Shown: positions 5,605 through 16,471 of the stretch, one piece after another
Position numbering within the stretch: position 1 is the first letter of the stretch
Layout: each line of letters begins with the position of its first letter
Made by a program: the position numbers and the translations under genes
IMG/VR virus record: IMGVR_UViG_3300021131_000067
Span: 1-20,156 of that record
DNA: 20,156 nt
DNA from: a virus
Direction: 5' to 3' (one strand)
Notes under the pieces: model-generated
Told to the model about the DNA's origin: nothing
The model's input: the letters and a program-made list of their open reading frames with translations, nothing else
Databases searched by the model: none

Positions 5605-7073
5605 TATTGGTATTCTCCACGCATTAATGCTTCAATATTATGAGCTTTTTCTGTAAATTTCTTAATATTCTCCTTTGACATTCCTTTAAACAATTTATTT
5701 ACTTCCAATTGTTTTTCAGCCTCTGATTTATTGGAATCGTGAATATTTTGCAAAATAAAAATATTAGGATCGTAATTGGATGCCCATGCGTTTTTAAATT
5801 GCGTATGATTGGCATTTGCGTTGTCAATACCACGCTTTGCCTCATACTTTTCATTTGCTTTTAAGAATGCTTTATAAGCAGTATTAGTGGCCTTAGATCG
5901 TTCAAGAATGGACTTTAAACCACCTTCTGTGATGTTTACATTAGGAGAAGCAGCAGCATTAGCATCTCTAGCTGCGTCAGTTCCAGCGCCCATAATTCTT
6001 GCTTGACGATTAGTAACATCAGCTAAAGACTTGGTTAAGATGTCCAAGTCCTCATTGCCTGCAATCCATTTACCACCTGATCTTAATAATCTTTTTGGTG
6101 CAGAGCCGGCAGTTGCAGATAATTTCTTTTCCGCAGTGTCGATTGTTTTATTTAATTCCTCAGTTTCTTGACCTAATGAACTGTATTGAGATTTTTCTTC
6201 TCTTGCTTGTTTAGCATTATCTCTTTGTTGTTCATTGAACAATGGGACACCATTCGCCATTCTGACAGGTGTTTCAGCAGTAATTAATGATGGTTTATTA
6301 GCACTTACTTGACCAGTAGGTTGAGTTGCTGGAGGTTGATTGCCTTGATTGGTCGAACCAAATGGAACATATTCATTAGTGGCTTTATTAAATGTGCCTG
6401 GCACTCCACCAGCGCTTACTACTTCAGATAATGGTCCTTTGTATTCTTGCGCTGCTTTGGCTGCTACTTGCGTTACTTGTGGTCCTGGCTTTGCATATCC
6501 CAAAGTTCCAATATAAGACTTTGCCAATTGTTGTGCATTAGGATCTGTTGGAAATTGATTGGCCCAATTCTGAACCTTCTCAATATAAACCTTTGGATCT
6601 TGCTCTCCGGATGCACTTAAGCCTGCCAAAACAGTTCCCAATGAACTTCTTTGAGTATCGGTTAACTTTGTTTTTGCTTCATTGGCTGAGGCTTGATTTG
6701 TCTTTAAATCAGTGTATTTCTTAATTGTTTCTGCGCCAGTATAGGGAGCCAAAGAATTGACAGAATGAGTGATTTTTTGTAAATCAATTTCACCATTTTG
6801 ATCTAAATAATTTGTTGGATCACTTGCCCAATTTTGTAAAATTTTGCGTTCATTATTTGCTTGAGTGGCTTTTTCTAAATCAATACCTTTAATTTGGGAT
6901 TCTATTTCGGCAGATTTAGAGCGAGATTGTTCACCAGAAATCATTGCCGGATACAGTTCTTTAATTTTACTTAATTCGTAAGATGATTTTTGAATATTGA
7001 GCATATCCGCTAAAGACATTCCCTTAGCCGGTTCTACTTTTATTGCGCTTGTGTCAGTTCTAAAATCAGCCAT
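5604..7073 (-). CDS. Ejection protein, gp20-like by position
   Basis: The 489-residue protein lies between gp7-like and gp16-like genes and is close to P22 gp20 in length (471 residues). It is mostly helical and charged. A Gln/Pro/Thr-rich linker (about 239-262) separates an N-terminal helical half from a C-terminal half. The C-terminal half has a coiled coil (290-320), a basic patch KRLLRSGGKW (327-336) and the motif MGAGTDAARDANAAASPN (361-378). No enzyme motif is seen. Assignment rests on order, size and composition rather than on a direct sequence match. The role would be an internal virion protein delivered into the cell during DNA injection. AAGGAT precedes the ATG. Confidence 0.65.
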   Translation of the reverse strand: MADFRTDTSAIKVEPAKGMSLADMLNIQKSSYELSKIKELYPAMISGEQSRSKSAEIESQIKGIDLEKATQANNERKILQNWASDPTNYLDQNGEIDLQKITHSVNSLAPYTGAETIKKYTDLKTNQASANEAKTKLTDTQRSSLGTVLAGLSASGEQDPKVYIEKVQNWANQFPTDPNAQQLAKSYIGTLGYAKPGPQVTQVAAKAAQEYKGPLSEVVSAGGVPGTFNKATNEYVPFGSTNQGNQPPATQPTGQVSANKPSLITAETPVRMANGVPLFNEQQRDNAKQAREEKSQYSSLGQETEELNKTIDTAEKKLSATAGSAPKRLLRSGGKWIAGNEDLDILTKSLADVTNRQARIMGAGTDAARDANAAASPNVNITEGGLKSILERSKATNTAYKAFLKANEKYEAKRGIDNANANHTQFKNAWASNYDPNIFILQNIHDSNKSEAEKQLEVNKLFKGMSKENIKKFTEKAHNIEALMRGEYQ

Positions 7074-7082
7074 AATTTATCC

Positions 7083-7835
7083 TTAAGGTACTGGGCCAAC
7101 AAAATTAGGGTTAGCCATGCCATTAATGTATTGCACTCCAGATTGGCCAAAACCACCTGGTTGACTTAATCCAGTTCCACCGCCTTGTCCAATACCAGAT
7201 AAATACGCATAATTGCCCACGTTACTTAATCCTCCGGCATAGGCATTAGCTTGACCTACTTGGCCGGCTGCTTGTGCTTGTCCGATGCCTTGCGTAAGTT
7301 GAGCCACATTAGTGCCTGTACCAAGCTGTGCATTGGCAGTACCAGCTGCACCTTGATAACCTATTCCAGCAATACCGGCTAATCGATTATAAATATTAGT
7401 TTGGTTTGCGCTGTAATTATTAAATGCGTTTTGATAAGCACTTTGAGCATAATTTTGCGTATAGTCTTGTAAACCTTTAAGTGCATTACCACCGACCATG
7501 CCACCTGTGGCATTATTGGCTGCGTTGGTTGCACCTTGCCCTTGTTGTAGCTGAAAAGCATAATTTGGTGCTAAATTGGCATTTAAATCTTGATTATTAA
7601 ATTGATTAGTTAAATAAGGAATATTTTGAGTTAATGCGTTTACGCCAGTTTGTCCTAATTGCGTATATGGTGCAAATTGCTGACTGGCTTGTTGGCCAGT
7701 CTGTAATAATTGATCTTGCGCTCTAGCATTGGCATCAGCTTGGGTTTGTGCAGCTTTTTGAGCGGCATTGCCTTGAATCACAGCACCTGCTAAAGATGCA
7801 CCCCCCATAATTACTGCCGCAGTTACCCATGTCAT
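7083..7835 (-). CDS. DNA transfer/ejection protein, gp7/p32-like
   Basis: The 250-residue protein begins with a hydrophobic Gly/Ala stretch (about residues 4-24) followed by an Ala/Gln-rich helix. It carries the pattern of P22 gp7-type DNA transfer proteins: PYTQLGQTGVNALTQ (57-71), PNYAFQLQQGQGATNAANN (90-108) and GGNALKGLQDYTQNYAQ (115-131), then a Gly/Gln/Ala-rich tail. P22 gp7 has 229 residues, a similar size. The hydrophobic start fits a protein that inserts into the host envelope during ejection. The ATG overlaps the stop of the cupin-like gene (ATGA), and AAGGAG lies in that gene's last codons. Confidence 0.78.
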   Translation of the reverse strand: MTWVTAAVIMGGASLAGAVIQGNAAQKAAQTQADANARAQDQLLQTGQQASQQFAPYTQLGQTGVNALTQNIPYLTNQFNNQDLNANLAPNYAFQLQQGQGATNAANNATGGMVGGNALKGLQDYTQNYAQSAYQNAFNNYSANQTNIYNRLAGIAGIGYQGAAGTANAQLGTGTNVAQLTQGIGQAQAAGQVGQANAYAGGLSNVGNYAYLSGIGQGGGTGLSQPGGFGQSGVQYINGMANPNFVGPVP

Positions 7836-8507: not shown

Positions 8508-10639
8508 TTTTCACCTACACTTGATTTAAGGTTAGCAGCCACGATGACCGCATTAATTGGATCAGTTACCACTAATTCAAATACTCGATCTCTAGTCATG
8601 CCTAATCTTCGCCAAATAGCACGATTCTTATATTTACCAATCTTACCAATACTTTTCCAATGCTCATTGGACCAAGTAGAGCCACCATCATCGGACCATC
8701 TCATCATGGCCTGTGGATCAGCTCCCACAGTTTCAACATTTAATGGAGTAGTAATGCCAGTTAAACCAACACCAGGCTGAAAGTACACTTGTAATTCATC
8801 AAAGTATTCACGTTGATAATCTGCCACTAAATGCGTTGTTCTTCTTAATCTGCGTATTGGTTGGCCATTATCTGTAAAATTAGTAGGGTCTAACTCGTAA
8901 ATATTACCATTTTGCCAATCGCCTACTAACATCATATTTTGAAAGTTAATACAACAATTACCACGATGACGATGGTACTGATTTAAATCATCACAATATA
9001 ACCACTTATGCCACATTTGAGTGGCTATATCGTAGCACCAAGTAATATCTAAACTAGGAAATGATAAAACATAAACCTCATGCCCACCTTGTTGATAAGT
9101 CCAAGCAATTGCATCACTTACATCCTGATTAATGAATGTGTTTTCGACTGCATGAGTAGAAATCCTCTGTGGAAAATATCCATTCATCATCACCACTTCA
9201 GCTTGACCACGAATATTCTTACTTAAATAAGCAAATGAATTACCTAGTCTTGCAACGCTAAACTTGGCAACGATTCCATGCTGACTTGATGAGCCTGGTA
9301 TTCTTTGAAATGGAAAAGGGAAAGAACCAACATCTGCCCAGACTTCAGAAGTAGTTTCGCCAAGTAGATAAACTTGTCCATGATCAGCAATTTGAGCCAC
9401 TAAATTATCCGGTCCGGTAAACTTACTAGCAAAACTTAATGCCGGAGTAATTGGACTGAGGATATTGGACGCTGCCCATTGTTGAGTATTAGGATTATTG
9501 TAAATAAAGTAATTGTCGACAACATCCACAGAGCTCGCGCCTGTAAACGCACCATCAGTCGTTGGTATTACAGAAAAATTTAACGCATACATTGTTTCAG
9601 AGCCAACAGTTTGACTATTATTAATTACATAATTACCTGTACCACCAGCACCAGTTCCAAAAGATAAAGTTAAGGTTAAACCTGTGCCACTTCCTGTGGT
9701 TGAAGTAGATACGTTATTTGTTGGGTTAGAAGTATAAGCACCCACATTCTGCACAGATAAGCCTGTAACTGCACCAGAGCCACCAATTGAAGTTACTGTA
9801 TAAGTCTGTGGTGTATTGCCATAAACACCCCCTAAAACTGTAATCGTGTCATTGACTGCATAACCTGTTCCTGCTGTTGCAATACTTTGGCTCAATACTG
9901 TGCCTGATCCATAAGTAGTAATAATCGTGTTTGCAGTTACTCCAGCACCTTGAATGGTTTGACCATTATAAATAACTCCACTTGTTGCAGTAACAGTTAA
10001 AGTAGTGCCGGACATCGATGCAGTTAAGGTGGAGGCCACTGCTGCTGAGTTCATTTGCTCTGTTGCAATCGTCAATGAAGTATTGATGGTGTATGTACCA
10101 ACTCCACCTGTTCCTGAGCCAAGTGCAGTAATCACGATTTCATTACCTACACCTAAACCAAATAATGATTGACCTACTGCTATTGTGCCAGACTGCATTA
10201 AAGACACAGTTAAAGTTGTTCCACTGATCGAACCTCTAAATATAGCCGATGCAGGATTACTAATTCGCCAAGTATAACGATAAGTACCATCAACAATATA
10301 GACGTTTTGACCATTATCGGTAATTCCTACAATACCTGATGAGGTATTTAATTGACCTACTAATGTTGGGGTTAGATTAGACGTTAAAACATAAACATAA
10401 GGGCCACAAACTGCAACAGCATATTGCCCACCACTAACAGTTCTCATTCCTCGCACTTCAGCCATTGCTGACAAAACTGCTTTAGCAGATAAGCCTGGCG
10501 TTGGATATAAGGCCACTACACCATTTTGACCGGCTTGTTTGGTGATATCTATTTCTGTACGAAAATTGATGCAATCTTCGCCATTGACATAAATCGATGG
10601 TGCAACATAGGAAGGGCCAACAAAGCCAAAGTCTGCCAT
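8504..10639 (-). CDS. Packaged DNA stabilisation / tail hub protein, gp10-like, with repeat insert
   Basis: The 711-residue protein matches the P22 gp10 type (Phage_stabilise family), a tail hub protein that closes the portal after packaging. Family-like sequence occupies residues 1-134 (SIYVNGEDCINFRTEID, VALYPTPGL, the YIVDGTYRYTW region) and 355-711 (VDVVDNYFIY, EVWADVGSFPFPFQRIPGS, HGIVAKFS, then a beta-propeller-like C-terminus with WSDDGGSTWS). Between them, residues 135-350 are Gly/Thr/Ser-rich repeats. Without that insert the protein would have about 495 residues, close to the 472 of P22 gp10. Its ribosome-binding site (AAGGAG) lies in the last codons of the homing endonuclease gene, whose stop it overlaps by one base (TAATG). 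Confidence 0.85.
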   Translation of the reverse strand: MADFGFVGPSYVAPSIYVNGEDCINFRTEIDITKQAGQNGVVALYPTPGLSAKAVLSAMAEVRGMRTVSGGQYAVAVCGPYVYVLTSNLTPTLVGQLNTSSGIVGITDNGQNVYIVDGTYRYTWRISNPASAIFRGSISGTTLTVSLMQSGTIAVGQSLFGLGVGNEIVITALGSGTGGVGTYTINTSLTIATEQMNSAAVASTLTASMSGTTLTVTATSGVIYNGQTIQGAGVTANTIITTYGSGTVLSQSIATAGTGYAVNDTITVLGGVYGNTPQTYTVTSIGGSGAVTGLSVQNVGAYTSNPTNNVSTSTTGSGTGLTLTLSFGTGAGGTGNYVINNSQTVGSETMYALNFSVIPTTDGAFTGASSVDVVDNYFIYNNPNTQQWAASNILSPITPALSFASKFTGPDNLVAQIADHGQVYLLGETTSEVWADVGSFPFPFQRIPGSSSQHGIVAKFSVARLGNSFAYLSKNIRGQAEVVMMNGYFPQRISTHAVENTFINQDVSDAIAWTYQQGGHEVYVLSFPSLDITWCYDIATQMWHKWLYCDDLNQYHRHRGNCCINFQNMMLVGDWQNGNIYELDPTNFTDNGQPIRRLRRTTHLVADYQREYFDELQVYFQPGVGLTGITTPLNVETVGADPQAMMRWSDDGGSTWSNEHWKSIGKIGKYKNRAIWRRLGMTRDRVFELVVTDPINAVIVAANLKSSVGEN
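9590..10030 (-). repeat. Second type A beta repeat in gp10-like gene, split by a nested unit
   Basis: Codons 204-247 encode the first half of a type A repeat (TASMSGTTLTVTATSG, YNGQTIQGAGVTANTIIT). Codons 328-350 encode the second half (GTGAGGTGNYVINNSQTV, ending GSETM). The roughly 80 codons in between (9659-9898) are a different repeat type, so the second type A unit has been interrupted. Confidence 0.7.
9659..9898 (-). repeat. Nested type B repeat unit within the gp10-like gene
   Basis: Codons 248-327 encode ATAGTGYAVNDTITVLGG, then a TYTVTSIGGSGAVTGLSVQN core, GAYTSNP and TGSGTGLTLTLSFG. The pattern 'GtGY-x-x-N/GDtitv-x-GG ... vt-x-l-x-v-x-n-x-G-x-Y-x-x-x-P' is a repeat I associate with environmental phage structural proteins. 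It breaks the second type A repeat near its middle. Confidence 0.65.
10049..10237 (-). repeat. Complete beta repeat (type A) inside the gp10-like gene
   Basis: Codons 135-197 encode [10 protein letters not shown] near the start, then a hydrophobic stretch ending AVGQSLFGLGVG, then GSGTGGVGTYTIN and a T-x-A-T-E-Q-M end. The unit resembles the insert in the gp4-like gene at 11789-11995, in the same order and with the same length between anchor motifs. It looks like an all-beta, surface-exposed domain. Confidence 0.75.
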
Positions 10640-11244
10640 TAAATAACTCCTTTATATCGTTCACCACGCCATATTTTATGTATGGTATTTTTGTGAACAT
10701 TAAATTTATTACCTAATTCAATATGAGTCATAATCCCTTTGTTGGCTCGAACAAATCTTACTTCGTCATCTGTTAATTTTGCAGTATTCTTGTTTCCAAG
10801 CAATCCTTTGCTAATTGCTTCACAATGTGATTCTGTTAATGGTTTTCCAATTCTGGCAATACTTATTTTTTCTTTGGTTTCATCTGTTAATTTAACCCCT
10901 TTACGAGGGCTTTGAACACCTTTACGCATTACACTCCATTTGCGTTTTTGGTCTTCAGAATGACTCATTGAATAGCCAGAACAACCTTCACCACCATTTG
11001 TTAAATTAATTAATTTGATACCACGCTTTTTATAAACATCAATACATTCCATTTCAGCTAAAAAAGCCAATTCTTCATCTAAATTATCTTTAATTATTTC
11101 AGATACAAATCCATGCTTCGCAACATAAAATTTCCAATATCTACCTCTTTTATTTGTATCAGAGTGACGCTTGTCTTTACCTTTTCCAACATAAAAAATA
11201 TTGTTAGTGTCTAATGCTCGATGTTGATAGATGTAATATTGCAT
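10639..11244 (-). CDS. Free-standing GIY-YIG homing endonuclease
   Basis: I chose the ATG at 11244 (201 residues) because the catalytic domain begins there and because it lies outside the gp4-like gene; a longer reading would start inside it. Residues 3-22 hold the YYIY ... FYVGKG pair of the GIY-YIG domain. KDKRH follows, then Glu64 and Glu66 in FLAEMECI, and LINLTNGGEGCSGY (78-91), typical of phage and intron-borne members. Residues 107-150 carry NUMOD3-like DNA-binding motifs (RKGVQSPRKGVKLTDETKEK, then ISIARIGKPLTESH). Residues 157-199 form a helix-turn-helix region (LTDDEVRFVRANKG, VHKNTIHKIWRGERYKGV). It probably nicks or cuts phage DNA lacking the insertion. No strong ribosome-binding site precedes the ATG. 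Confidence 0.88.
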   Translation of the reverse strand: MQYYIYQHRALDTNNIFYVGKGKDKRHSDTNKRGRYWKFYVAKHGFVSEIIKDNLDEELAFLAEMECIDVYKKRGIKLINLTNGGEGCSGYSMSHSEDQKRKWSVMRKGVQSPRKGVKLTDETKEKISIARIGKPLTESHCEAISKGLLGNKNTAKLTDDEVRFVRANKGIMTHIELGNKFNVHKNTIHKIWRGERYKGVI

Positions 11245-11257
11245 AAGTATATGATTC

Positions 11258-12229
11258 TTAACGAAAAAATCCGCCTGCGAGAACCCAACCGGCATCTTTC
11301 TGTCTACTACTTAATAACGCATCAGCAAACCTTGCATTCTGTACCGGCTTCATATTGGTGCGTTTAATAGTGCTTTTAGATTGTGCTGCGTAACTCTGAA
11401 TTAAACCAATTTGCGTTGGTGAGGCTTTGCCATACATAGGCATTAATCGTTCTGCTAAACACCATCTTAGGCACATATTGTAGCCTTGAGGTAAATTGAT
11501 CACATCGTTTTGATTTACAAATCTTGCTAAGATAGTATTCGCGAATAAGTGCATTTCACCTTGTGATGGATTAGGCCACACAAAGATATTACCAAGCGTT
11601 TCTGTTGGCTGATAATAAATTGCTTTAGGCCAAGGACCATTTAAAGTTTTAAGTCCAATCATTTCATAATTTTCAACGCTCAATACTGCACAAGGGTAAT
11701 CTAAGCCACCATTTAAAATTGGCTGACCATTACTGTTTGTATTGACTCGAACAAATGCAGTATCAATTACTAATGGTCTTTGGTAATAAGAATTGATTGT
11801 TGTAGAAGATGCAGTTTGACTAATATTAACTGTATATGTGCCTGCTTCATTAATATTGCCACCAGCACCAGTACCAAAGCCTACGATAGTAGTGCCATTA
11901 CTGATGCCTGAACCTGATAAGGTTTGGCCTAAAGCAATTGCACCACTCTGAATTGCAGTAATGGTTAAAGTTGTGCCGGAGATTGAGCCAGTAAAGACTG
12001 CACCAATCTGCCCACCTGGTCCAATTGTGTATTGCGTTTGTCCTGGTGTTACTGGAAAGATAATTTCAGTCTTATAGTAAATCATCATGGATTCATTAGA
12101 CCATTGATCTAACATATCATTAAGCATATCAAAGGCATCTTGTGCATCTTCAGGTGCAGGAGTTTCTCCAGCAGCCAAAGCACCAATATCTTTTAATGCT
12201 CTGCTAATTATGTCGATGGGCATTGTCAT
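11258..12229 (-). CDS. Tail accessory / head completion protein, gp4-like, with repeat insert
   Basis: The 323-residue protein resembles the P22 gp4 type, the first tail factor to bind the portal ring. The N-terminal part (residues 1-75) has [20 protein letters not shown], then [16 protein letters not shown] and a [15 protein letters not shown] turn, all typical of this family. Residues 79-147 are a type A beta repeat. Family sequence then resumes ([59 protein letters not shown]). It is longer than P22 gp4 (166 residues) even without the insert. The ATG at 12229 overlaps the preceding stop (ATGA) with AGGATGAAG upstream; an ATG two codons further in is possible. Confidence 0.8.
11789..11995 (-). 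repeat. Type A beta repeat inserted in the gp4-like gene
   Basis: Codons 79-147 encode [40 protein letters not shown], and [11 protein letters not shown]. The same motif order occurs in the gp10-like gene 1.5 kb downstream ([10 protein letters not shown] ... GQSLFGLGVG ... GTYTIN). Codon choice differs between the copies, so the relationship is at the protein level and not a recent duplication. Confidence 0.75.
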
Positions 12230-12867: not shown

Positions 12868-14592
12868 TTAGCTTCCTGTAAGTGCTTGGAGTTGAGCAGA
12901 GGTTACTGCTTGCGGATAAAATGCAAGTTTTTTAATATGACCAGTAAATTGATTGGATGTTGTTATATATCCACCAATTGTTAATTGAGTTGGTAGAATT
13001 GATTGAGTTGTTGCAGTTATTGTTCCAATTGACCCACCATTTAATAACCCAGATGCACTTGAAGAACCTGCCACATTTGAATAAGTATAAATACTTAGTT
13101 GATTTGTATTTGCAGTTATTGTGCCGAATGAAGCATTATTTGTGCCTTCATAGCCCGATATAGTTGCAGTTGATTTATTGACATAATATTGAGCAGTTGT
13201 TCCGTTATCAATTCCCCATATTGCCATATTTGGGGCAGATGATGATATTGTTGGAGTATCAAAAGCACAATAAATAGTTCCTTGTTGATAATTAAACCAT
13301 TGAGTAAAATTTGTGCTTGTTGTTTTAGGTGGAACATCACTTGCCCTAGTTACTTGTGCTGAAGTAGTGGCTATATACGAGGTAGGAAATGCGAGGGCTT
13401 CTAGTTGTGCTCCCCAAATGTAGATGCCTGAATAGCCATTACCTGTGTAAGAATCTACACCATTTGAAGCACCTGTCGCAGGCACAGAACCAATATAAAC
13501 TCCTGGCTTAGCATTTCCTGAAGCACTAGCTGTTGCAGTTATTGAAAAACGCCACCATCCATTGCCTAAATTGGTAGAAGTTGTTACCAATGCACTTGAA
13601 TTTTTTTGAACAGTTCCATCAATTAAAGAAAATTGAACTCCATTGCCTAACCATCCATTTCCAATATCACCTGACAAAGTTATATAATTTCTAGTCCACG
13701 CTTTTGCTTCTACCGACCATGTGTATTGTTGTCCTGATGTAATAGTTTGTGAGCCATAATTACCGCACCCATGACTATTGGTTACAGTTGTATCTTCTAT
13801 TAATAATTGTGCAGTCTGTGTACCATCAGGTGCTATACCAGCAGTTTGTGTTATTGAACTTCTTATTTTAACCCAAGTTGAATCGCTAAATAGTTGTGAA
13901 TAAGTCAGTAAATTCGTACTACTCTGCTCAATCAATAAACCTAAACTTTCCCCTGTTGTAGGATTAAAATCAAATCTAGGTGCGTTAATTGGTGCTGTTA
14001 GTAGTTGAGGGATGTAGTTCGTTATTGCTGTGGTAGTTGTAATATTAGTCGCAGTAGCACTACTTCTATTTTCTAATTGTGAGCCATAAATATTGATTGC
14101 ATCGCCACTTGTAACAATCTGAATACCAATAGTTCTAGAACCTGCCGATGGTGTCGCAGTATAAGTATATTTAGCCCATGAGCTTGTGATTGTTACTGGG
14201 CTTAGTGTAGAACCATCAAGCGTTAAGTTAATCGTGCCTGTGCCTGTTACACGCTGAATATAAATGCTTTCTGTGTAGGCAGTTGCAGTTAATGTTAATG
14301 TTTGATATAAAGTTGCGTTTCCAGCAGTTGCAGTCATTGAAAAAGCAGTTGTTCCACCCGCAGGATCAGTTACTCCACTTGCAATAGTCGCACTTGTAGC
14401 CACCCACGCAACATTACTAAATGTATTAGATTGCAACAACAAATTCTGCTCTGCCAATACGCTCGTTTTACCATCATAATATGGTGCAGTAGTTGACCTA
14501 GAGAAAGTCACACGAGGGTCTAAAGTCTGAGCATTAGCAAAGTCCAATAACAAAGATGGTCTGACATTAGGATAGTTAGTATTAATGCTCAT
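12868..14592 (-). CDS. Fibre/spike protein with tandem carbohydrate-binding-like domains
   Basis: I chose the ATG at 14592 (574 residues) because GGAAG sits just upstream and it overlaps the preceding stop (ATGA). The N-terminus has RPSLLLDFANAQTLDPRVTF and SRSTTAPYYDGK, the opening seen in phage head spike fibre domains. Two jelly-roll, lectin-like modules follow. One runs from about 49 to 176 (NLLLQSNTFSNVAW ... NIYGSQLE). The second runs from about 205 to 420, beginning APRFDFNPTTGESLGLLIEQ, continuing STNLLTYSQLFSDSTWVK, and closing with YIWGAQLEALAFPTSYI. Residues 430-574 resemble a LamG/concanavalin-like domain (QQGTIYCAFDT ... FTGHIKKLAFYPQAV). It is probably a surface fibre that binds host or environmental glycans. 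No catalytic motif is seen. Confidence 0.75.
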   Translation of the reverse strand: MSINTNYPNVRPSLLLDFANAQTLDPRVTFSRSTTAPYYDGKTSVLAEQNLLLQSNTFSNVAWVATSATIASGVTDPAGGTTAFSMTATAGNATLYQTLTLTATAYTESIYIQRVTGTGTINLTLDGSTLSPVTITSSWAKYTYTATPSAGSRTIGIQIVTSGDAINIYGSQLENRSSATATNITTTTAITNYIPQLLTAPINAPRFDFNPTTGESLGLLIEQSSTNLLTYSQLFSDSTWVKIRSSITQTAGIAPDGTQTAQLLIEDTTVTNSHGCGNYGSQTITSGQQYTWSVEAKAWTRNYITLSGDIGNGWLGNGVQFSLIDGTVQKNSSALVTTSTNLGNGWWRFSITATASASGNAKPGVYIGSVPATGASNGVDSYTGNGYSGIYIWGAQLEALAFPTSYIATTSAQVTRASDVPPKTTSTNFTQWFNYQQGTIYCAFDTPTISSSAPNMAIWGIDNGTTAQYYVNKSTATISGYEGTNNASFGTITANTNQLSIYTYSNVAGSSSASGLLNGGSIGTITATTQSILPTQLTIGGYITTSNQFTGHIKKLAFYPQAVTSAQLQALTGS

Positions 14593-14855
14593 AGTGACTT
14601 CCAATTATGAAATACGACTGCAATATAAACAATGATTAATCCTACTAATAAAATAGGATATTCAAGTCCAATGTAATAGCTTAAAACCCCTAATAGAACC
14701 GACTTAATTGCTAAGGCTATATCAACATTTAAGTATTTAAATACAAATGACATAACAGGATTCTGCTCATATCCACCATTTTTTAAGATAGTGCGAGTGG
14801 TATACCAATCTAAGAGTTGGAGAATAAAGAATGTAAGGGTAAGAATATAAATCAT
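14589..14855 (-). CDS. Small membrane protein, DUF5658-like
   Basis: The 88-residue protein has three or four hydrophobic segments (about residues 2-17, 45-62 and 64-84). It carries the motif LLDWYTTRTILKNGGYEQNP (residues 14-33) followed by VM. The 'D-x-x-T-T-x-x-x-x-x-x-G-x-x-E-x-NP' pattern is that of DUF5658-type membrane proteins, found in bacteria, archaea and phages without an established role. Its place between two fibre genes, joined to both by ATGA overlaps, is odd for a membrane protein. It may act on the host envelope and simply share the late transcript. Confidence 0.7.
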   Translation of the reverse strand: MIYILTLTFFILQLLDWYTTRTILKNGGYEQNPVMSFVFKYLNVDIALAIKSVLLGVLSYYIGLEYPILLVGLIIVYIAVVFHNWKSL

Positions 14856-16471
14856 GCTATGCGATAAGTGACATAAGTATTTGTTGCAGTCTTAACAGTC
14901 TGAAACTGTGCTGAGGTATTAATTGCGACTGTAGCATTACCGACATAAGTATGCCCTGTTCCAGCAGTCATTGTAATTGCACCTGAAGCTGAACCTGTGT
15001 TGATTACAATCCATAGAAATGAGTTATTGACCACGCTGAGACCATTTAACACTCCAGCGTCTGTTAATGTGCCTGTTGGTAATGTTAATGCTACAGCAGT
15101 TGCAGAAGTAACTTGCACAATGTAAGTAAGCAATTGAGCAATTGTAAGCGTTGTTGTAGCAGTTAATGCAGTAATAGTTGGTTGAATCTGATAACCACTC
15201 GTGCCAACTAAGTTTGTAGTTGAGCCACCACCAATCTGAACTGCTTTAGCATCTTGATAGGCCATTGTGCCTAAGTATTGATTCAAAGGAATTTGATTCG
15301 CACCAGTTCCCACATCTTTTTGACTAACAATGTTGTAGCCATTTTCGATAAAAGATGTAACACTTAATGCACCTGTTGATGGATTAAATGTGTAGTTTGG
15401 ATTGGTGTACTCAGTAGTTGCAGTACCTGTTTGAGCAGTAAAATAAGTAGGGTAGTAAGTGGCATTTGTCGAGTTTGTAGAGATACCAATCGTTGATGCC
15501 GATGTGCTAATTGCTGACCATACAGGAGCTCCTGCACCATTGGATTGCAAGAAGTTACCTGCTGTACCTACCGTAGAAAAAGCGTATGCAGTTCCTGTGC
15601 CATAACCCACACCACCTGCTGTTGGTGTTGCTGATGAGTTTGTACCACCATTGGCAATCGGTAATATGCCTGTTACCCCTGTTGTTAAGGGTAAGCCTGT
15701 TGAACTTGCTAAACTACCCACCAAGTTTGTGCCTGTTACAGTAGTTGCGTTTAATGATACTAATCCTGCAATAGTACCTGTAATGCCACCTAGTGCTATA
15801 GAAGTGCTACCTATTGTTACCGAGCTATTCGTTAAAGCACTATTCGGTATGTTGGTTAAAGACGCACCTGAGCCACTAAATAAGGTTGCAGTAAACTTTC
15901 CTGTTGATGGCTGATATTGTAGTTTAGTAGAGGAAGTTTCAACAATATTGGTTGATCCAGAGGTCGCACTATAAAATAATGGGTAATAAGTGGATGTATC
16001 AGTAGTTTGATCAGAAATTGTTACTGAAGTTGCAACAGTTGACCAAGATGGTGCTGATGTACCATTACTTAATAAGAATTGCCCAGTAGATCCTGCTGCT
16101 AAATAAGCAGTTGAGTTTAAAGCATTTTGATAAACAATCTGCCCAGCACCACCACCACTTAAATTATTAGCAGTATTGGCAGTTCCGTTCAGGGTGCCAA
16201 AGAATGTAGGAGCAGAAAATACCCCTGTGCCTGGATTCCATGTCAAACTTGGTGAAGCAATGGCTAGACTTGTTACTTGGCCACTTGTTGCACTTGTAAA
16301 GGTAGGGTAAAGCGTTGCATTGACATTTGTGTTAACAATTCCAATCGATTCAGTCGCAGTAATTACGAATGGCTGACCTTGACCAATAAAGGTATTAAAC
16401 GTGCCATCAAGGTTAAAGTATGCTTGAACTGGCAGTATATTTTGATCTACTGTTAAAGCCGGACCAGTCAT
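14852..16471 (-). CDS. Repetitive tail/head fibre protein
   Basis: The 539-residue protein is almost free of charged residues and rich in Thr, Ser, Gly, Ala and Asn. One repeat (about 43 residues) appears three times, at about 51-93, 158-200 and 336-378. Each copy reads like ATLYPTFTSATSG followed by L-x-W/Y-N-P-x-T/S-G-x-F/L and a short S-F/L-F end. A second motif occurs twice: GSTGQFLLSNGTSAPSW (127-143) and GTAGNFLQSNGAGAPVW (302-318); IANGGTN lies before the second copy. These are typical of phage fibre shafts. The C-terminal region (about 425-539) is a separate beta domain with LTLPTGTLTDAGVLNG and TAGTGHTYVGNATV. Its role is probably host or surface contact. AAGGAG precedes the ATG. Confidence 0.72.
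   Translation of the reverse strand: MTGPALTVDQNILPVQAYFNLDGTFNTFIGQGQPFVITATESIGIVNTNVNATLYPTFTSATSGQVTSLAIASPSLTWNPGTGVFSAPTFFGTLNGTANTANNLSGGGAGQIVYQNALNSTAYLAAGSTGQFLLSNGTSAPSWSTVATSVTISDQTTDTSTYYPLFYSATSGSTNIVETSSTKLQYQPSTGKFTATLFSGSGASLTNIPNSALTNSSVTIGSTSIALGGITGTIAGLVSLNATTVTGTNLVGSLASSTGLPLTTGVTGILPIANGGTNSSATPTAGGVGYGTGTAYAFSTVGTAGNFLQSNGAGAPVWSAISTSASTIGISTNSTNATYYPTYFTAQTGTATTEYTNPNYTFNPSTGALSVTSFIENGYNIVSQKDVGTGANQIPLNQYLGTMAYQDAKAVQIGGGSTTNLVGTSGYQIQPTITALTATTTLTIAQLLTYIVQVTSATAVALTLPTGTLTDAGVLNGLSVVNNSFLWIVINTGSASGAITMTAGTGHTYVGNATVAINTSAQFQTVKTATNTYVTYRIA

Follow-up and report, generated by a model that had tools for sequence, protein, structure and literature searches.

A shared beta module gained stepwise by two stacked ring proteins of a short phage tail

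When two stacked proteins of a phage tail carry the same accessory repeat, it must be asked whether the copies were acquired together, whether they are still exchanged between the two genes, and what they do on the virion. The question is raised by an IMG/VR virus record of a freshwater phage (IMGVR_UViG_3300021131_000067), analysed over its whole length of 20,156 bases (the window). The record, possibly a genome fragment, codes for a P22-like coat protein and a tail block on the minus strand (Table 1). Between coat and adaptor (window 12868-16471) are two large proteins of 578 and 539 amino acids, the first matching the tail-protein family phrog_5939 and the second nearly matchless. Elsewhere, at locus L005 (2290-3805; MW202674.1), a P22-like coat gene is annotated in two pieces with a small ORF in between, which may reflect either an element that interrupts the gene or faulty sequencing.

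Table 1. Features of the adaptor-hub region of the window
Feature	Position	Strand	Basis
gp4-like head-tail adaptor, 323 aa	11258..12229	-	PF24175 SU10_adaptor, phrog_12985, AF2, Foldseek
Adaptor repeat module, codons 79-147	11789..11995	-	profile match; absent in 234-aa homologues; pLDDT
GIY-YIG/NUMOD3-type homing endonuclease	10639..11295	-	phrog_314 7e-24; NUMOD3 19.9 bits, slightly below Pfam cut-off
gp10-like tail hub (head closure Hc3), 711 aa	8504..10639	-	phrog_578; sequence and fold matches
Hub repeat 1, codons 135-197	10049..10237	-	profile match 85 bits; pLDDT 89-95; absent in insert-free hubs
Hub repeat 2, N-terminal part, codons 204-245	9905..10030	-	profile match 56 bits; contiguous in L015/L056/L064/L079
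modB, glycine-rich module nested in hub repeat 2, codons 246-325	9665..9904	-	phrog_32129 9.7e-9, phrog_9703 1.7e-7
Hub repeat 2, C-terminal part, codons 326-352 (GTGAGGTGNYVINNSQTVGSETMYA)	9584..9664	-	aligns with repeat end in uninterrupted relatives

A sequence-only reading of the window had proposed that the gp4-like protein and two segments of the gp10-like protein share a beta repeat, and the open reading frames are as it described. The copies are modules of 63-67 residues. In local alignments tested against 2000 composition-matched residue shuffles, the gp4 repeat and gp10 repeat 1 are identical at 34 of 63 positions and score 164 (best shuffle 84, z = 16.9), the gp4 repeat aligns with the joined halves of gp10 repeat 2 at z = 12.5, and a repeat profile recovers the module in gp4 and at both places in gp10. 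Composition bias is strong, which might invite the view that Gly/Thr/Ser-rich segments resemble one another by chance or low complexity; this view has to contend with z values of 12-17 in the composition-matched shuffle tests, with anchors that keep their order, with the profile E-values and with a consistent predicted fold, has a practically negligible chance of being right and is rejected. Translated BLAST of single repeats against phages is weak because of low-complexity filtering. Neither copy is a recent duplicate, as had been supposed from codon choice: nucleotide identity across aligned codons is 57%, and the same codon is used at only 12 of the 34 identical residues. The third copy, placed by the earlier reading at gp10 codons 204-350, is present but is not the single long repeat that those limits imply, since an unrelated module, modB, splits it in two. 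This intervening segment does not rise above shuffles in comparison with the repeats (z 0.8 and 1.6), matches PHROGs of its own (phrog_32129 and phrog_9703) and has low pLDDT, and repeat 2 is uninterrupted in four relatives. The hubs of L043 and L045 hold another distinct module of ~90 residues (ITGIAGQFSC...TYYIIATNGSTTFTL) between repeats 1 and 2, so that several module types use the same hub region.

Judged from aligned sequences, the adaptor and hub segments are insertions, as the corresponding positions of homologues are without them. The adaptors of Rhodoferax phage P26218 and ctfPj964 have 234 amino acids and lack the module that here separates YTIGP from the RP strand, and it is absent at this site from the 234-residue homologues L007 and L008. 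In insert-free hubs (475-529 aa) everything from the early propeller strand up to FxxLP is missing. The expectation that the hub without its inserts would approach the P22 length holds well: subtracting ~218 residues from 711 leaves ~493, against 488-489 in insert-free relatives and 472 in P22 gp10. With insert-free homologues at both sites, accessory beta domains have indeed been inserted in two proteins which, in tails of this type, lie stacked on each other, and the AF2 models give these modules a consistent predicted fold. An outgroup-rooted tree rules out that the hub inserts are ancestral core lost elsewhere. The same is rejected for the adaptor module, though less surely, because in adaptors of the type found in relatives of Xanthomonas phage PBR31 this site is taken by a different insert, whose hhalign probability against the module is 50%.

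The identity of the two carriers bears on where the modules might lie. By fold and Pfam the 'gp4-like' protein is an adaptor of the SU10/T7 type and not of the minimal P22 gp4 type. It scores 33.4 bits with PF24175 SU10_adaptor (cut-off 27), it has no Pfam match to P22_Tail-4, and its Foldseek matches are the portal-tail adaptors 9k09_d, 8jov_G and 7z47_B, the P22/Sf6-type adaptor 7sp4_c appearing only weakly (E 0.39). In the AF2 model (pLDDT 82.6, with the module at ~90 over most of its length) a long beta region holding the module is flanked on both sides by helices. The SU10 adaptor consists of a helix bundle and a fibre-dock domain, and this long-tail-fibre dock is absent from the P22 and Sf6 adaptors (PMC9509320). 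By layout, the middle beta region of the window adaptor may be read as the counterpart of the SU10 dock. The window adaptor shares the helix-beta-helix arrangement, the Pfam family and the fold matches with T7/SU10-type adaptors (PMC9509320), and differs in the extra 69-residue module held in the beta region.

The hub belongs with the P22 gp10/Phage_stabilise (Hc3) proteins on its match to phrog_578 (1.4e-101), sequence matches to 7eeq/9vyg and a fold match to P22 gp10 (8u10_1, 1.7e-18). The window protein itself fails the Phage_stabilise profile, which its insert-free relative L019 passes (PF11134 7.2e-12, above the cut-off). Its core is homologous by PHROG, sequence and fold to P22 gp10 and to the needle-head/stabilization proteins of Pam1 and Pan3, from which it differs by ~218 extra residues in the propeller. 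In the AF2 model (pLDDT 76.7, repeats ~90) the insert lies between strands 112-125 and 355-358 and the repeats enter early blades of the beta-propeller, the blade being counted from predicted strands. A comparable arrangement is known from the Kuravirus SU10, whose nozzle protein gp17 has four Ig-like nozzle domains between propeller blades 2 and 3 (PMC9509320). In both, beta domains lie in an early propeller loop of the hub, hexameric in SU10 and presumably so here, whereas the window hub is of the P22 gp10 type and has two repeats, one of them split by modB, with no sequence match to the SU10 domains.

The order in which the two proteins were modified can be traced in a census of ~200 loci, compiled by scanning viral contigs together with phage records, in which hub repeats occur only where the adaptor has the repeat. 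On a tree of 77 rows built from adaptor and hub cores, insert columns omitted, the hub insert requires one change, on the branch leading to 52 rows (SH-aLRT 99.8). The adaptor module is found in the same 52 rows and in eight more that have insert-free hubs, forming a clade of 60, and the adaptor was therefore modified first. The hub followed later, in one event and always with at least two repeats: complete insert-bearing hubs have two or more in 137 of 137 cases and never one. Within this framework a second adaptor repeat accounts for four changes on the tree, and the presence or absence of modB for at least five. This is an ordered, stepwise example of core ring proteins of a short-tailed phage gaining decoration modules, in which insert-free relatives on both sides permit direct comparison.

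Because the gains are separate, the coordinated acquisition envisaged by the earlier reading is not supported. Its other suggestion, ongoing shuffling between the genes, fares no better, since repeats in the same genome are hardly more alike than those taken across genomes: adaptor-hub identity is 0.470 in true pairs and 0.463 in permuted ones (59/2000 permutations), an excess of less than one percentage point, and the partial correlation of adaptor and hub inserts given the core is 0.02. The repeats group instead by position. Identity within a class is 65.5% for adaptor copies, 55.5% for hub copy 1 and 57.9% for hub copy 2, and 40-44% between these classes; the inserts track the phylogeny of the cores (Mantel r 0.30 and 0.36, 0/500 permutations). 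The copies are inherited vertically, by position. One might still derive the hub pair from the module of the adaptor, with exchange continuing within the tail gene block, given that the hub gain is restricted to lineages whose adaptor already had the module and that neighbouring genes repeatedly carry it. In L037 (6977-8125; also L038-L041) a 383-residue ORF between adaptor and hub has the same repeat, giving three adjacent module-bearing genes, and adjacent neck-terminator and tail-sheath genes both carry the module at six other loci. Yet the identity of hub repeats to adaptor repeats (40-44%) does not exceed that to the repeats of a third, unrelated neighbouring protein (45-47%), and a same-genome excess is absent from the sheath and terminator pairs (0.456 vs 0.466). 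Together with the separate gains and the marginal adaptor-hub excess, these figures make such copying with continued exchange very unlikely.

Separate, positionally inherited gains leave the question of what kind of module this is. A profile finds it in other proteins at 82 loci, in families of tail fibre, tail sheath (phrog_205/DUF3383), neck terminator, baseplate wedge, capsid, cement and minor head proteins, and Foldseek finds the module alone in viral capsid, side-tail-fibre and chaperone-tipped proteins (for example over 77 columns at rmsd 1.0 and 43% identity). In these unrelated virion proteins it is extra to the core, as a decoration module is. The six loci at which terminator and sheath genes both carry it (L295, L257, L259, L300, L312 and L320, the pair of the last assigned by layout without an individual scan) show that modification of stacked neighbours is recurrent; they are myophage-type, and several come from contigs of bacterial genomes. 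The module itself has no match in Pfam, NCBIfam or PDB sequences, including named domains of the Ig-like kind, its PASTA match being below threshold (14 bits, cut-off 23.2). Kinship to the solved capsid decoration protein 8eci was considered and dropped (E 0.095, biased, and not reproduced with a PBR31-type profile), as was an FCCH-type name, for which the literature search yielded nothing useful. A widespread virion module that lacks a curated family is thereby brought to light. It is probable that the repeats are copies of a promiscuous surface-decoration module of phage virion proteins akin to the Ig-like domains known from phages (Fraser et al., 2006, J Mol Biol 359:496, cited in PMC10684548). 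The likeness lies in small beta modules spread across unrelated virion proteins and extra to the core fold. 'Ig-like' is an analogy only, there being no solved or sequence-matched structure; the window module has no Ig-type Pfam match, and here it occupies fixed internal sites in two stacked ring proteins with the order of gain traced.

In the course of events that we favour, one module copy entered the fibre-dock-like beta region of an adaptor taken to be dodecameric, and in a later, separate event a tandem pair entered the early blades of the hub propeller. ModB and its relatives subsequently entered hub repeat 2, the module copies being inherited by position thereafter. Twelve adaptor modules and six times two hub modules would then ring the outside of the short tail, off the DNA channel, and most likely add weak contacts to host surface glycans or neighbouring fibres. 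The adaptor insertion would lie in the peripheral dock region and that of the hub near the position of the SU10 Ig-like nozzle domains; SU10 propeller blades 1-3 lie away from the axis and channel (PMC9509320), so that by analogy the modules should project outward. They are nearly without charged residues, a scarcity as compatible with a passive spacer as with an adhesin. By these analogies peripheral decoration with weak surface contacts appears most likely, a brace or moving nozzle being the main rival and neutral insertion the null.

The main rival holds that 12 adaptor and six times two hub modules pair one to one, locking the 12-to-6 symmetry step or swinging outward during infection as the nozzle domains of SU10 do. 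With 12 adaptor copies expected, each bearing one module, and six hub copies expected, each bearing two at the least, the ratio would indeed be 12:12. We nevertheless regard it as rather unlikely, as the clade of eight has the adaptor module with none in the hub, so that the insert of the adaptor evidently needs no counterpart in the hub to work; the inserts do not co-vary beyond the core (the partial r of 0.02); and seven of the 77 tree rows break the ratio with two adaptor and two hub repeats. A more specific version, in which the modules make up an outer 12:12 collar of matched parts that spans the symmetry step and is rearranged when infection begins, as a two-protein counterpart of the SU10 nozzle built stepwise on a P22-type tail, is decidedly unlikely. 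Should the modules attach to the surface of the host, or shift position during infection, the tail rings would, besides the fibres, share in host contact.

The earlier reading was silent on the GIY-YIG/NUMOD3 endonuclease gene that separates the adaptor and hub genes. L011 has an HNH type at the same junction (6942-7598) between proteins 97-98% identical to those of the window, which means that the nuclease is swapped at one site; the gene spacing at the junction of L013 is the same as in L011. Nuclease genes have been reported at boundaries of phage exchange (PMC10448857), and repair at the adaptor-hub junction could spread flanking inserts through populations. On the null reading the modules are neutral passengers, loop-tolerant and spread by illegitimate recombination and drift, with the junction endonuclease co-converting its flanks. 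The modules are inserted at loops, modB has been gained or lost repeatedly, and one junction holds two endonuclease types in near-identical phages, all as this reading would have it. Only 31 of 136 insert-bearing pairs, however, have a gene-length spacer between adaptor and hub, and we consider neutral passage unlikely; the module is kept in all 60 rows of its clade and the hub pair is never reduced to one, which suggests selection.
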